In this document: positions 8,250 through 15,148 of the stretch, piece by piece | How the letters are laid out: each line of letters opens with the position of its first letter | How positions within the stretch are numbered: position 1 is the first letter of the stretch | Assembly: GCF_020510685.1 (NCBI RefSeq) | Contig: NZ_CP075185.1 | Coordinates: forward strand, 62,001 to 126,000 | Reading direction: 5' to 3' | Source of the DNA: Dechloromonas denitrificans | GTDB taxonomy: Bacteria > Pseudomonadota > Gammaproteobacteria > Burkholderiales > Rhodocyclaceae | DNA: 64,000 nt | Made by a program: the position numbers and the translations under genes | Notes under the pieces: model-generated | Database searches by the model: none | What the model was told of the DNA's origin: nothing | Seen by the model: the letters and a program-made list of their open reading frames with translations, nothing else

Positions 8250-9455
8250 ATGATCAAGCAGATTCGCATCGACCAGCTCAAGCCCGGCATGTATGTCCAT
8301 GACCTGAATTGCGGCTGGCTCGATCACCCTTTCCTGTCGAATGCCTTCTACGTGCGCGATGCGGCAACCGTAGACAAGATTGCCGAGGTCGGCATCCGCG
8401 AGTTGTACATCGACACGGTCAAAGGCGCCGATGTCTGGGCGGCGCGCAGCCAGCGCGAAGTCAATGCCGATCTCGACCAGCGGCTGCAGGAAATCGCCCG
8501 GAAGCCGCCGGAAAAGCCGATTGCCACCGAGCTGACCGAGGAATCGGTGCGCGCTCGGCGCTTGCACGGCGAAGCCAACAAGATCGTTCGCCACATGATG
8601 GACGACATCCGCATGGGCCAGCAGATCCAGATCGACCGTATCGAGCCGCTGGTCGAGAACATGGTCGATTCGATCTTTCGCAACCAGGATGCGCTGCTGC
8701 CGCTGGCCCGTCTGAAGAATCACGACGATTACACCTTCGAGCATTCGGTCAGCGTCTGTGCCTTGCTGGTCGCTTTCGGCCGGGGCATGAAGCTGTCCAA
8801 GGAAGTCATCAAGGAGATGGCGCTGGGCGGGTTGCTGCACGACGTCGGCAAGGCGCGGATACCGGACGAGATTCTCAACAAGCCGGCCAAGCTGACCGAC
8901 GATGAATATGTCCGGATCCAGTCGCACGTCGCGCAGGGCAGGCTGCTGCTCGAACAGACGCCGGGTATCGGCGAAATTGCCCGGCAGGTCACCTGCCAGC
9001 ACCATGAGCGTTTCGATGGCAGCGGTTATCCGGACAAGCTGGCCGGCGGGGGTATTTCGCTCTACGGGCAGATGGCGGCCATCGTCGATGTGTACGATGC
9101 GATTTCCTCCGAGCGCGTCTATCACAAGGGCATGTCGCCGACGCAAGCGCTGAAGAAGCTGCTCGAATGGAGCGCCCACCACTTCGATCCGCAGCTGGTC
9201 CAGGCTTTCATCCGGGCCATCGGCATTTACCCGACCGGCACGCTGGTCCAGCTCGACAGCAAGCGGATGGGCGTGGTCGTCGAACAAAACGAGAAAAGCC
9301 TGCTCGAACCGGTGGTGCGGATTTTTTACCACGCCGGTCAGCAGCACTACATTCCGCCGGAGATCGTCGATCTCGCCAAGGTGCAGGACCGCATCGCCAG
9401 TTTTGAGAATTACGAAAAATGGAAAATCGATCCCTATCACTGGCTGCCCGCCTGA
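8250..9455 (+). CDS. HD-GYP cyclic-di-GMP phosphodiesterase (DUF3391 + HD-GYP)
   Basis: A 401-residue protein. The N-terminal about 130 residues resemble DUF3391 (IDQLKPGMYVHDLNCGW). The HD-GYP domain follows with all metal-site elements: EHSVSVCALL, the HD pair at His197-Asp198 (LLHDVGKARIPDEIL), QSHVAQGR, CQHHERFDGSGYP and DVYDAISSERVYH. It is therefore predicted to hydrolyse c-di-GMP to pGpG/GMP. It overlaps the next gene by 37 nt, and a second HD-GYP copy follows at 10040, so the three genes are probably one operon. Confidence 0.9.
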   Translation: MIKQIRIDQLKPGMYVHDLNCGWLDHPFLSNAFYVRDAATVDKIAEVGIRELYIDTVKGADVWAARSQREVNADLDQRLQEIARKPPEKPIATELTEESVRARRLHGEANKIVRHMMDDIRMGQQIQIDRIEPLVENMVDSIFRNQDALLPLARLKNHDDYTFEHSVSVCALLVAFGRGMKLSKEVIKEMALGGLLHDVGKARIPDEILNKPAKLTDDEYVRIQSHVAQGRLLLEQTPGIGEIARQVTCQHHERFDGSGYPDKLAGGGISLYGQMAAIVDVYDAISSERVYHKGMSPTQALKKLLEWSAHHFDPQLVQAFIRAIGIYPTGTLVQLDSKRMGVVVEQNEKSLLEPVVRIFYHAGQQHYIPPEIVDLAKVQDRIASFENYEKWKIDPYHWLPA

Positions 9456-10039: not shown

Positions 10040-11260
10040 GTGATCCGCCAGATTCCGATTCGGCAGCTGCTGCCCGGCATGTATGTGGTGGATCTGCATC
10101 GGCACTGGCTGGAGCACTCGTTCTGGCGGCGGCGCTTTTTCGTCCGCGACGAAGCGCAGATCGGCCGGCTGCTCGAGGAAGGCATCGTCCAGGTCAGCAT
10201 CGACACCGCCAAGGGCATCGATCTACCGCCGCCACCGCCGCCGCGGTTGGTTCCGGACAATCTGCTGGTGCGCACCTTCATGTCGCGGGCCGAGCGCCTC
10301 AAGGCCAGCCCGGCGACGATTTCACTGGGCGAGGAGCGCCGGCGGGCCAGCCGCCTGATCACCGAAGCCAGCGCGACGGTGAGCGATCTGATGCTCGCCG
10401 CGCGGGCCGGCCGCGAAGTCGATGCCGCCCGTCTCGAACCGGTGGTAAGCAAGATGATCGAATCGGTCAGCCGCAACCCGGATGCATTGGCCCCGCTGGC
10501 CCGCCTCAAGCAAGCCGCGACCTATGCCACCGAACACGCCGTGGCGACTGCGGCGCTGATCATTGCCTTTGGCCAGAAACAAGGCATGGCGCAGCCGGAA
10601 ATCGAAAAGCTGGCGCTCGGCACCATGCTCAAGGACATCGGTCAGGCGGCCCTCGATGCCCGCCTGATCACCAAGCCCGGCATGCTCTCGCAGGCCGAAT
10701 ATTCGGTGGTCCAGAGCCATGTCGAGGAAGGGCTGAGCGTTCTCGAAGCGACCTCGCACCTGTCGGAAACCTCGGTGGCCGTCGTTCTCGAACATCACGA
10801 GCGCTATAACGGCTGCGGCTACCCTTACCGCATGGCCGGCGACGGAATTTCAGTGGCCGGCCGGATGGCGGCGATTGTCGACAGTTACGACGCGATGACT
10901 TCGGATCGCCCCTACCGGCCGGCCATTTCGCCCTCGGATGCCTTGCGCCAGCTGTACGACCAGGGTGGCACCCAGTTCGACCCGTCGCTGGTCACCGCCT
11001 TTGTCCGCACCGTCGGGATCTATCCGGTCGGCACCCTGGTTTTGCTGGAAAGCGGCCATCTGGCGGTGGTTGAGGAACTGCACCACGACAATCTGCTCAG
11101 CCCGATCGTCCGGGTCATTTACCACGCCGCCCGCCACCAGTACGTGACGCCGGTCGAGATCGACCTGACCCGGAAAGTCGGCAATCACTACGGCCAGATC
11201 GTCCGCGCCGAGAGCTACGAGCGCTGGGGGCTCAGTCCCTTGCGCTGGCTACCAGCCTGA
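10040..11260 (+). CDS. second HD-GYP paralogue with degenerate HD pair
   Basis: A 406-residue paralogue of the protein at 8250 (same start style IRQIPIRQLLPGMYVVDLHRHW, same C-terminus SYERWGLSPLRWLPA), beginning with GTG at 10040. In the HD-GYP domain the key HD pair is Lys198-Asp199 (LKDIGQAAL) instead of His-Asp, and the GYP loop reads HHERYNGCGYP. Other elements (TEHAVATAALI, QSHVEEG, DSYDAMTSDRPYRP) remain. Loss of a metal-ligand His suggests reduced or absent phosphodiesterase activity, perhaps a c-di-GMP binder or regulator of its neighbour. Its 3-prime end overlaps convergent mutY by 29 nt. Confidence 0.88.
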   Translation: MIRQIPIRQLLPGMYVVDLHRHWLEHSFWRRRFFVRDEAQIGRLLEEGIVQVSIDTAKGIDLPPPPPPRLVPDNLLVRTFMSRAERLKASPATISLGEERRRASRLITEASATVSDLMLAARAGREVDAARLEPVVSKMIESVSRNPDALAPLARLKQAATYATEHAVATAALIIAFGQKQGMAQPEIEKLALGTMLKDIGQAALDARLITKPGMLSQAEYSVVQSHVEEGLSVLEATSHLSETSVAVVLEHHERYNGCGYPYRMAGDGISVAGRMAAIVDSYDAMTSDRPYRPAISPSDALRQLYDQGGTQFDPSLVTAFVRTVGIYPVGTLVLLESGHLAVVEELHHDNLLSPIVRVIYHAARHQYVTPVEIDLTRKVGNHYGQIVRAESYERWGLSPLRWLPA

Positions 11261-13240: not shown

Positions 13241-13321
13241 CCGCCTCTCTCGCGCTCTTGCTCGGAAGGCCGTGAACCGGTTCTAAGACACTTGACTGTT
13301 TTCGTGGCGCTTTGAGAGAAT

Positions 13322-13495
13322 CCGCGCTCCTATCGGTATCGAGATACGGAACACGGTGCGAATCCGTGGCGGGCCCGCCGCTGTAACCGGGGACGAAGAC
13401 TGCATGGTCGCCAGACCAGCCACTTGCGGGGCATACCGCGCAGGGAAGGCGCAGTGCTTCGGCTGATCCGGAAGCCAGAAGACGAATCGATACCA
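13322..13495 (+). ncRNA. cobalamin (adenosylcobalamin-type) riboswitch
   Basis: The conserved core is readable: GGTGCGAATCC near 13355, GCGGGCCCGCCGCTGTAACC near 13369-13388 running on into CGGGGACGAA, GCCACT at 13429-13434, GGGAAGGCGC at 13443-13452, and the B12 box GATCCGGAAGCCAGAAGAC at 13465-13483. The P1 stem closes it: GGTATCG (13335-13341) pairs with CGATACC (13488-13494). It precedes an intrinsic terminator and the peptide/radical SAM genes, so ligand binding should switch those genes off. Unlike most copies, it does not precede a cobalamin synthesis or transport gene. Confidence 0.93.
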
Positions 13496-13511
13496 ATCAG
13501 GAGCCAAGGCA

Positions 13512-13570
13512 AGGGCTCCGGCTGACTGCATGCGAGAAGCGTGCAGTCAGCCGGAGCCCTTTTTGTTTTT
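13512..13570 (+). terminator. riboswitch expression-platform terminator
   Basis: A 22-bp stem with one G-U pair: 13512-13533 pairs with 13539-13560 around a GAGAA loop, followed by TTTTTGTTTTT. GGAGCC (13500-13505), at the edge of the aptamer, can pair instead with GGCTCC (13514-13519). That gives a plausible antiterminator that would form when the aptamer is unoccupied. The peptide gene starts 21 nt after the T-tract. Confidence 0.92.
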
Positions 13571-13590
13571 GCATTCCCGAGGAGTGGAAC

Positions 13591-13746
13591 ATGACCAAAA
13601 CTGTGACTTCAACCGTTAAACACCCGCAAACGCCGATCAGTCAGACTGCGTCGGTCGCCCCGACCATCGCCGTGCGTAAGAGCTGCAACCCGGAAGGCAT
13701 GGGCCTGTCGCACTACGTGCTGATGGACAAGAAGGCGGCCAAATGA
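13591..13746 (+). CDS. cbpA: 51-residue precursor peptide of a radical SAM RiPP-like cassette (CbpA-like)
   Basis: A short gene with GAGGAG 7 nt before its ATG, directly behind the B12 riboswitch terminator. The product has a Thr/Pro/Ser/Val-rich N-terminal leader-like half (residues 1-28), then a distinctive segment AVRKSCNPEGMGLSHYVLMD with a single Cys32 and a basic tail (KKAAK). Its stop overlaps the maturase start as ATGA, so translation is coupled. Size, position and coupling are those of a ribosomally made peptide modified by the neighbouring radical SAM/SPASM enzyme. I recall a TIGRFAM pair named CbpA (modified peptide precursor) and CbpB fitting this arrangement; not checked here. 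The mature product and its function are unknown. Confidence 0.75.
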   Translation: MTKTVTSTVKHPQTPISQTASVAPTIAVRKSCNPEGMGLSHYVLMDKKAAK

Positions 13747-15113
13747 CCGCAGCGCTTCCTGAGGGAGCGCTGCGCGACCCGCATTTTCTGCCTGTCGACA
13801 TCGGCCATGATGTCTACGCCGCGTTGACCGACCCGGATACCGCCTTCTGGGCCCTGGTCGACAAGCGCAAGGTCGGCGAGGGGCTCGACTCGGCGACGCT
13901 TGCCGCCTATCGCGAGAAGGCAGATGGGTTCCGGCAGGAGTTGCATGCCCTGCGCTTCGAACTGAAGCCCTCCGGCGTCTATCTCAACCCGACCGAGCGC
14001 TGCAATCTCAACTGCACCTACTGCTATCTGCCCGATACCCAGCGCAGCAGCGGTACGCACATGTCGGCCGAACTGTTGCACGCCTCGCTCGGTAAGCTGC
14101 GCGACTATTTCCGCTCGGTGATGCCGGACGGCCGCAAGCCGCGCGCCATCTTCCACGGCGCCGAGCCGCTGATGAACCAGGCCGCTGTCTTCGAAGCGAT
14201 CGATGCCTTTGGCGACGATTTCATCTTCGGCCTGCAGACCAACGGCACACTGCTCGACGATGCGGCGCTCGACTTCCTGACCTCGCGCAATGTCAGCATC
14301 GGCCTCTCGCTCGACGGCCCGCTGGCCGAAATTACCGATGCAACGCGCCGGACCTGGGGCGGCAAGAGCGTCCACGACAAGGTGCTGCGTACCATGGAGA
14401 AGCTGCGCGGCTACGGTTCATGGAGCGTCATCACGACCTGCACGACCGAGAACCTGCCCTACCTGACGCGCATGGTCGAGCTGTTCCACGCCCATGAAGT
14501 GCCGACCTGCATGCTCAACACCGTGCGCTGCACCCTGCCCGGGGCGCGCGGCGTCAAGCCGGCCGACGGCGACATGGCCAAGGCCTTCTTCGCCGCCATG
14601 GACCGCACCCACGAGCTGTACCGGGAGACCGGCCGCAAGCTGATGGTCGCCAATTTCGCCAATATCCTGATTGGCATCCTGGCCCCGACGGCGCGCCGGT
14701 TGATGTGCGACATTTCGCCCTGCGGCGGCGGTCGCGCCTTCTTCGCGCTGGCCGCCGACGGCGGCCTCTACCCGTGCAGCGAGTTCATCGGCCTGCCCAA
14801 CTTCCGAGGCGGCAACCTGCTGGTCGATGGCGTCGAGGCGGCCCTGGCCTCACCGGCCTTCCAGACCGTTACGACGCGGGATGTGGACAAGTTCAGCCCG
14901 TGCGGCGACTGTGCGATCCGCCATTTCTGCGGCTCACCGTGTCCGGCCGAAGCCTTCGAGATGAACGGCGGCATGGACAAGATCGGTGCCTTCTGCGATT
15001 TCTACAAGGAACAGGTCAATTACGCCCTGCGCCTGATCGCCGACGGCAAGGCCAACGACTACCTGTGGGACGGCTGGGACGAGGGAACGGAAACCGTTTT
15101 TGCGCTGAGTTGA
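13743..15113 (+). CDS. cbpB: peptide-modifying radical SAM/SPASM enzyme (CbpB-like)
   Basis: A 456-residue enzyme. The radical SAM cluster motif CX3CX2C is Cys87-Cys91-Cys94 in ERCNLNCTYCYLP. The TIM-barrel core follows, with FHGAEPLMN and GLQTNGTLL. The C-terminal SPASM domain has many Cys: MCDISPCGGG, LYPCSEFIGL, SPCGDCAIRHFCGSPC and GAFCDFYKEQ, enough for auxiliary 4Fe-4S clusters. It also has about 75 residues before the SAM motif. It overlaps the 51-residue peptide gene by 4 nt and shares its B12 riboswitch. By family, SPASM enzymes adjacent to short ORFs install crosslinks or other changes in that peptide. The radical SAM/SPASM call is firm; the CbpB name is recalled. Confidence 0.85.
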   Translation: MTAALPEGALRDPHFLPVDIGHDVYAALTDPDTAFWALVDKRKVGEGLDSATLAAYREKADGFRQELHALRFELKPSGVYLNPTERCNLNCTYCYLPDTQRSSGTHMSAELLHASLGKLRDYFRSVMPDGRKPRAIFHGAEPLMNQAAVFEAIDAFGDDFIFGLQTNGTLLDDAALDFLTSRNVSIGLSLDGPLAEITDATRRTWGGKSVHDKVLRTMEKLRGYGSWSVITTCTTENLPYLTRMVELFHAHEVPTCMLNTVRCTLPGARGVKPADGDMAKAFFAAMDRTHELYRETGRKLMVANFANILIGILAPTARRLMCDISPCGGGRAFFALAADGGLYPCSEFIGLPNFRGGNLLVDGVEAALASPAFQTVTTRDVDKFSPCGDCAIRHFCGSPCPAEAFEMNGGMDKIGAFCDFYKEQVNYALRLIADGKANDYLWDGWDEGTETVFALS

Positions 15114-15123
15114 GGAATTGCCG

Positions 15124-15148
15124 GAGGGCGCCGTAACATGGCGCCCTC
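15124..15148 (+). terminator. hairpin after the radical SAM gene
   Basis: GAGGGCGCC (15124-15132) and GGCGCCCTC (15140-15148) form a perfect 9-bp stem with loop GTAACAT, beginning 11 nt after the stop codon. The downstream GGTCATTTCT is only weakly T-rich, so termination may be partial. It closes the riboswitch-peptide-maturase unit. The remaining 15149-15381 holds nothing I recognise. Confidence 0.6.

Follow-up and report, generated by a model that had tools for sequence, protein, structure and literature searches.

What would a short peptide and its probable modifying enzyme do under the control of a cobalamin riboswitch? The question is raised by a compact locus in the 64,000-nucleotide stretch of Dechloromonas denitrificans DNA analysed here (the window), whose features are collected in Table 1. 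The preliminary description of this locus had recognized a complete cobalamin riboswitch, a 22-bp intrinsic terminator, a 51-residue peptide gene with a distinctive segment and a SPASM-domain radical SAM enzyme sharing ATGA with it, and each of these elements was recovered. The aptamer match spans the whole RF00174 model, at 81.6 bits against a gathering score of 31.5 bits. The terminator-like stem (13513-13559, 20 counted pairs) is followed by the T run TTTTTGTTTT and forms a 22-bp hairpin in the RNA fold. The distinctive segment corresponds to peptide residues 31-46, SCNPEGMGLSHYVLMD, and the overlap of the cbpA stop with the cbpB start is indeed ATGA. The names CbpA and CbpB, given in that description, were also right, as the peptide (54.6 bits, curated cut-off 35) and the enzyme (736.8 bits, curated cut-off 375) pass the equivalog cut-offs of NCBIfam TIGR04164 (cobo_pep) and TIGR04163 (rSAM_cobopep), respectively; the pair is thus a member of this named family. 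Because CbpA/CbpB are already named in NCBIfam, the pair itself is not new. The short names suggest that the curators saw a cobalamin link; the models carry names without a described product and make no mention of the riboswitch, of corrinoid operons, of tandem cores or of carriers lacking corrin-ring synthesis. No description of the product or function of CbpA/CbpB was found in the open-licence literature. The two occurrences of 'cbpa' found in PMC5682303 are reference DOIs, and PMC9484694 holds no match to terms on this topic.

Table 1. Features of the cbpAB locus (window coordinates).
Feature	Position	Strand	Basis
Promoter-like TTGACT-18-GAGAAT	13292..13321	+	Weak, low confidence; 1 found vs 0.6 expected by chance
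Cobalamin riboswitch aptamer	13317..13505	+	RF00174, 81.6 bits, E 1.5e-18, whole model 1-189
Candidate switching element, GGAGCC at 13500-13505	13500..13519	+	Folds and sequence complementarity; inferred mechanism
Intrinsic terminator hairpin and T run	13513..13569	+	Terminator search; 22-bp hairpin in RNA fold
RBS AGGAG of cbpA	13580..13584	+	Sequence
cbpA, 51-aa precursor peptide	13591..13746	+	TIGR04164, 54.6 bits
Conserved CbpA core, residues 29-44, RKSCNPEGMGLSHYVL	13675..13722	+	Invariant residues in 58 distinct cores
cbpB, 456-aa radical SAM/SPASM enzyme	13743..15113	+	TIGR04163, 736.8 bits; Pfam Radical_SAM and SPASM
Probable terminator hairpin after cbpB	15124..15148	+	Terminator search

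The arrangement of the leader suggests how the cassette may be switched. If the candidate promoter is real, its -10 element would run into the 5′ end of the aptamer model. Around 2.4 terminator-like sites are expected by chance in the 2.8-kb stretch searched, and the stem at 13513-13559 greatly exceeds the minimal length of such a site; the fold of 13317-13570 has a z of -8.4. In the RNA folds GGAGC (13500-13504) pairs with the 5′ GCTCC of the aptamer (13326-13330), closing the outer helix, while GGAGCC (13500-13505), as read from the sequence, is also complementary to GGCTCC (13514-13519) in the 5′ arm of the terminator. Bound B12 would therefore hold the outer helix, leaving the terminator free and cbpA-cbpB off. 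When B12 is absent GGAGCC would pair with the terminator 5′ arm and weaken the hairpin, and through antitermination transcription would reach both genes. This design fits production of CbpA when B12 is scarce, and from it we infer a B12 OFF-switch. Of 76 related loci examined, 52 have a hairpin with a trailing T run no more than 220 nt from the start of cbpA; letter shuffles gave 0.3 of 76. The 24 loci devoid of it include all nine of the alphaproteobacterial clade in the CbpB tree, where control may be exerted at translation. At the other end of the locus the transcript may stop at the hairpin following cbpB, and owing to this hairpin the unit looks bicistronic in the host genome. Elsewhere in the window, two similar-looking tandem frames (8250-9455 and 10040-11260), both starting MI[KR]QI.I..L.PGMYV and presumably bearing HD-GYP-like motifs, are separated by a small Ala/Glu-rich frame.

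The cassette is conserved well beyond its host. A scan of one genome per species returned 134 CbpB relatives, from which the best 80 loci were kept, many of them on MAG contigs whose bins are possibly mixed. cbpA lies directly upstream of cbpB in all 80 loci, with a stop/start overlap in 69 of them (L085 was entered as a miss owing to a wrong row), and in 41 carrier genomes searched whole every above-cut-off CbpA match adjoins cbpB (45/45). In 74 of the 80 loci an RF00174 match precedes the CbpB match on the same strand, at a distance of 141-434 nt. These comprise 39/40 loci of one subset (209-434 nt) and 33/38 of a second (141-359 nt), together with L068 (233 nt) and L080 (341 nt), which were placed into the count by hand. 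In three of the remaining loci (L070, L107 and L110) the contig ends less than 300 nt upstream; in L077 the riboswitch precedes a btuB-like gene that heads the run, and in L051 and L116 no cobalamin riboswitch was detectable in the RF00174 search. The anatomy of the cassette, the pairing of its genes and their linkage to the riboswitch are thus established by comparison of the loci, and the same gene order in 80/80 loci with the riboswitch directly upstream in 74/80 strongly supports the B12-controlled peptide and SPASM maturase first proposed. The description had listed two sequence-checkable findings that would tell against it, a missing riboswitch match and an unconserved pair; the match is present and the pair is conserved. 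Two genomes contain two cassettes, each with its own riboswitch (L067 and L068; L076 and L080), and the genome of L067/L068 has 10 cobalamin riboswitches. A plasmid copy from Methylovirgula sp. HY1 (L189), outside the 80 loci, has no detectable cobalamin riboswitch; in this plasmid (11831-16780) cbpAB lies a few genes from pqqA-pqqD-pqqE.

Distribution of the pair is patchy, with CbpB over the cut-off in 1 of 369 genomes of the class, 4 of 300 of the order and 15 of 150 of the family, and one of the four genomes of the host genus in the family sample lacks CbpB. A protein search, from which the best 120 of 2004 proteins at E <=1e-60 were taken out of 8000 scored candidates, placed first among the matches listed a CbpB labelled Dechloromonas sp. 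A34, with 95% identity. Loci labelled Thermodesulfobacteriota, Omnitrophota, Melainabacteria, Myxococcota and Bacillota are mixed in the CbpB tree, and transfer or misbinning is therefore likely in places. Spread of cbpAB by plasmids was rejected, since only one of 72,556 plasmid records carries CbpB.

The C-terminal part of CbpA is nearly fixed. The core R-x2-C-x3-G-x-G-L-S-H-Y-x-L persists in lineages as far apart as Betaproteobacteria and the bins labelled Omnitrophota and Melainabacteria, and none of its R, C, G, G, L, S, H, Y and L varies among the 58 distinct cores drawn from 79 of the 80 loci (L085, whose peptide was found separately, was left out). Of these positions C, G, G, S and R or K were fixed by the search pattern, which left L, H, Y and L free and which every locus matched. 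The N-terminal part drifts from Gln/Thr/Ala-rich to Lys/Glu-rich and would serve as an unconserved tether. Position +3 after the core Cys is occupied by D (37), E (13), K (3), N (2), Q, L or R (1 each), and position +2 by A (34), P (22) or T (2). An acid at +3 is thus common and, with 8 of the 58 cores devoid of it, dispensable as judged from the alignment. In three gammaproteobacterial genomes (G679, G680 and G682; loci L089, L090 and L093, of Neptunomonas and Sedimenticola) CbpA carries two tandem cores, of which only the second entered the core count, and this duplication suggests that the core is the processed unit. No solved protein resembling CbpA was found up to E 10. In L193 (minus strand, near 10203) the core is followed by an unusually long acidic C-terminal extension.

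The genes around the pair point to corrinoid metabolism. Local BLAST with identified genes located at least one cob, cbi or bluB gene in the fetched flanks of 19 of the 80 loci (mean locus 16.3 kb), L054 and L118 being counted partly by choice because the reference genes came from these two loci and the host genome. The cobT of L104, cut by the contig end, brings the count to 20/80 against 0/40 controls (p 0.0002, kinship ignored; the controls are 40 evenly spaced stretches from two genomes only). Downstream of cbpA-cbpB in L118 (a locus labelled Omnitrophota) come genes for a histidine phosphatase (cobC-like), cobU, cobT, cobS, an aminotransferase (cobD-like), cobQ, cbiB, a Diphthami_syn_2 gene and a periplasmic binding protein gene. 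Similarly, cbpAB is located between a tetrapyrrole methylase gene and cbiX-cbiC in L077, cobT adjoins cbpB in L104 and L106, and in L081 and L087 cbiA precedes cbpAB and bluB follows it. None of the tested corrinoid genes occurs in the fetched flank of the other 60 loci. In the host genome the nearest ones, bluB and cobQ, lie ~58 kb from the cassette. The earlier statement that only a peptide and its modifier lie downstream of the riboswitch holds for the host genome and does not extend to relatives, where the pair often stands in or beside runs of corrinoid-synthesis genes. The other four cobalamin riboswitches of the host genome adjoin nrdA, a BtuB-type receptor gene, bluB (with cobQ on the other strand) and cobT-cobS.

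Corrin-ring synthesis, in contrast, is dispensable for carriage of the cassette. CbiC is missing in 10 of the 41 carrier genomes, among them the complete host genome. Two of these ten have a CobJ/CbiH match over the cut-off and eight, including the host, do not; four of the eight contain weak, below-cut-off methylase matches only. Within the host family 11 of 15 carriers have CbiC, compared with 16 of 65 non-carriers (p 0.0006), a comparison confounded by kinship, which was not corrected for. Riboswitch and core are retained by the four family carriers that lack CbiC, whose genomes are 98-100% complete; three of them lie beyond the 41-carrier set and were judged by CbiC alone. A system supplying cobalt for corrin-ring synthesis would occur together with the ring pathway, and 8 of 41 carriers possess neither CbiC nor an over-cut-off CobJ/CbiH. 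The cassette tracks corrinoid metabolism without needing the ring pathway, and cobalt supply for ring synthesis is thus unlikely to be its general task. The suggestion, made at the outset, of cobalt scavenging loses ground as a general role for the same reason, intact riboswitch-cbpA-cbpB units being found in near-complete genomes without the corrin-ring markers tested. BluB is over the cut-off in 25/41 carriers and CobT is found in 35/41, at least one of the six misses being a contig-end effect (in G690 the contig of L104 ends inside CobT). These figures argue against cbpAB being strictly bound to the making or activation of the DMB lower ligand, and indicate that no single corrinoid step tracks cbpAB.

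What favours a role in corrinoid metabolism is the association of the pair with B12 control and corrinoid genes, even though it needs no corrin-ring synthesis. The B12 response, product and function of the cassette are all deduced, and we put at about 0.5 the probability that it is B12-repressed and that its CbpA-derived factor serves corrinoid salvage or assembly. The near-fixed core would yield a single defined product, made from the peptide and having a conserved partner, cofactor-like or ligand-like, rather than a diversifying antibiotic. Its place in salvage or assembly would be either intracellular or at the uptake step. The wider proposal, that CbpA gives rise to a peptide-derived factor for acquiring, processing or assembling B12 and other cobamides, made on B12 shortage in genomes labelled with six phyla whether or not they build the ring, is tentatively put forward.

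A related possibility is export of the mature peptide, which would bind corrinoids or cobalt outside the cell and be taken back up by a TonB receptor, in analogy to methanobactin for copper. As a modified peptide whose production is governed by shortage of its own nutrient, methanobactin would be a parallel. The presumed repression of the cassette by B12 would suit such a carrier, the invariant Cys and His of the core could act as ligands, and BtuB-type receptors are at hand, riboswitch-controlled in the host genome and encoded near cbpAB in L048 and L077. In contrast to methanobactin, however, cbpAB employs different enzymes and contains neither exporter nor receptor, and carriers do not generally need cobalt. 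No exporter or protease cluster recurs in the fetched flanks, among the clusters listed (at most 30) of ORFs present in at least four loci; bins labelled Melainabacteria and Bacillota, which may be mixed, also carry the cassette, and the cobalt version is further weakened by the carriers auxotrophic for the ring. Export and return of the peptide therefore appears rather unlikely.

The product could instead spare B12, as a peptide-derived cofactor or activator of a B12-independent enzyme that steps in under B12 shortage. Such replacements do form part of the host regulon, as one riboswitch (2098239-2098438 of the host chromosome; G000:C1, L001) stands ahead of nrdA, encoding the alpha chain of class I ribonucleotide reductase, a B12-independent isoenzyme. 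A fixed core is also what cofactor precursors display. PQQ and mycofactocin arise from a short precursor and a SPASM enzyme, and CbpA resembles these systems in its fixed C-terminal part and cofactor-like constancy, differing in the two-gene cassette, the B12 riboswitch and the lack of a PqqD-like Pfam match in 60 CbpB. The recurring neighbours are nevertheless corrinoid-synthesis genes and not isoenzymes, and no candidate client enzyme was found, making a B12-sparing factor improbable.

For a factor of corrinoid salvage or assembly, CbpB, coupled to CbpA through the overlapping codons, would modify the invariant C-terminal core of CbpA. The gene pair and its conserved core would suit a RiPP, in which a ribosomally made precursor undergoes enzymatic modification and release. 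Radical SAM and SPASM Pfam models match all 60 CbpB compared at E 0.5, and the CxxxCxxC cysteines C87, C91 and C94 are invariant, as in a radical SAM/SPASM maturase. At the same threshold the 60 proteins gave no Pfam match to the PqqD family (RRE), a type of domain that sequence profiles can miss. Eight cysteines of the SPASM region (322, 327, 345, 387, 390, 396, 400 and 418) are invariant as well, which suggests that the auxiliary clusters are fully ligated, like those of anSME, SuiB and PqqE, and do not have the open site of a thioether synthase. CbpB can be aligned with anSME (4k36, 4k37) over the radical SAM and SPASM domains, and C322 occupies the column of an anSME Cys and a CteB Lys. 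CbpB nonetheless scores only 103 bits with TIGR03942, the anSME model (cut-off 349). Sulfatases have a conserved Cys-x-Pro motif, which CbpA does not share, Pro being found at +2 in 22/58 cores. The most likely outcome would be either a C-C or C-N cross-link involving His41/Tyr42 or an oxidized Cys32, with a thioether at Cys32 less likely; by comparison with these enzymes CbpB is more likely a C-C type cross-linker or a Cys-oxidising enzyme than a thioether synthase.

A thioether would be expected if CbpB were a ranthipeptide maturase of the PapB type, joining Cys32 to the acidic residue three places on. PapB (NF047865) is the best NCBIfam model after CbpB, at 120 bits, both systems combine a radical SAM/SPASM enzyme with a short precursor containing a Cys and a nearby acid, and the host core reads C-N-P-E. 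PapB accepts Cys-Xn-Asp with n of 0-6 and also Glu (PMC9413430). The score, however, is far under the cut-off of 340, the +3 acid is absent in 8/58 distinct cores so that Cys-Xn-Asp/Glu is not a conserved feature of CbpA, and the extra Cys C322 speaks against an open-site cluster; the predicted cluster ligation of CbpB thus differs from that of open-site enzymes. As neither the acid at +3 nor the Pro at +2 is conserved, the PapB and sulfatase motifs as such are disfavoured, and PapB-type chemistry is distinctly improbable. Small modified peptides are often signals or antimicrobials, and the patchy distribution (15/150 family genomes) would agree with a peptide deployed on B12 shortage, for example against corrinoid competitors, yet the core does not diversify, no immunity or export genes recur among the neighbour clusters listed and the pair is found near corrinoid genes, rendering this the least credible explanation, with very little chance of being correct.

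A CbpA-derived factor of corrinoid salvage or assembly would join a small company, as known peptide-derived cofactors and metallophores are few. Being a two-gene system in culturable environmental bacteria, the cassette is directly open to experimental test. If the proposal is true, an unknown component would be added to one of the best-mapped vitamin pathways, and the ways in which bacteria that salvage or make corrinoids get by when B12 is short could become easier to understand.
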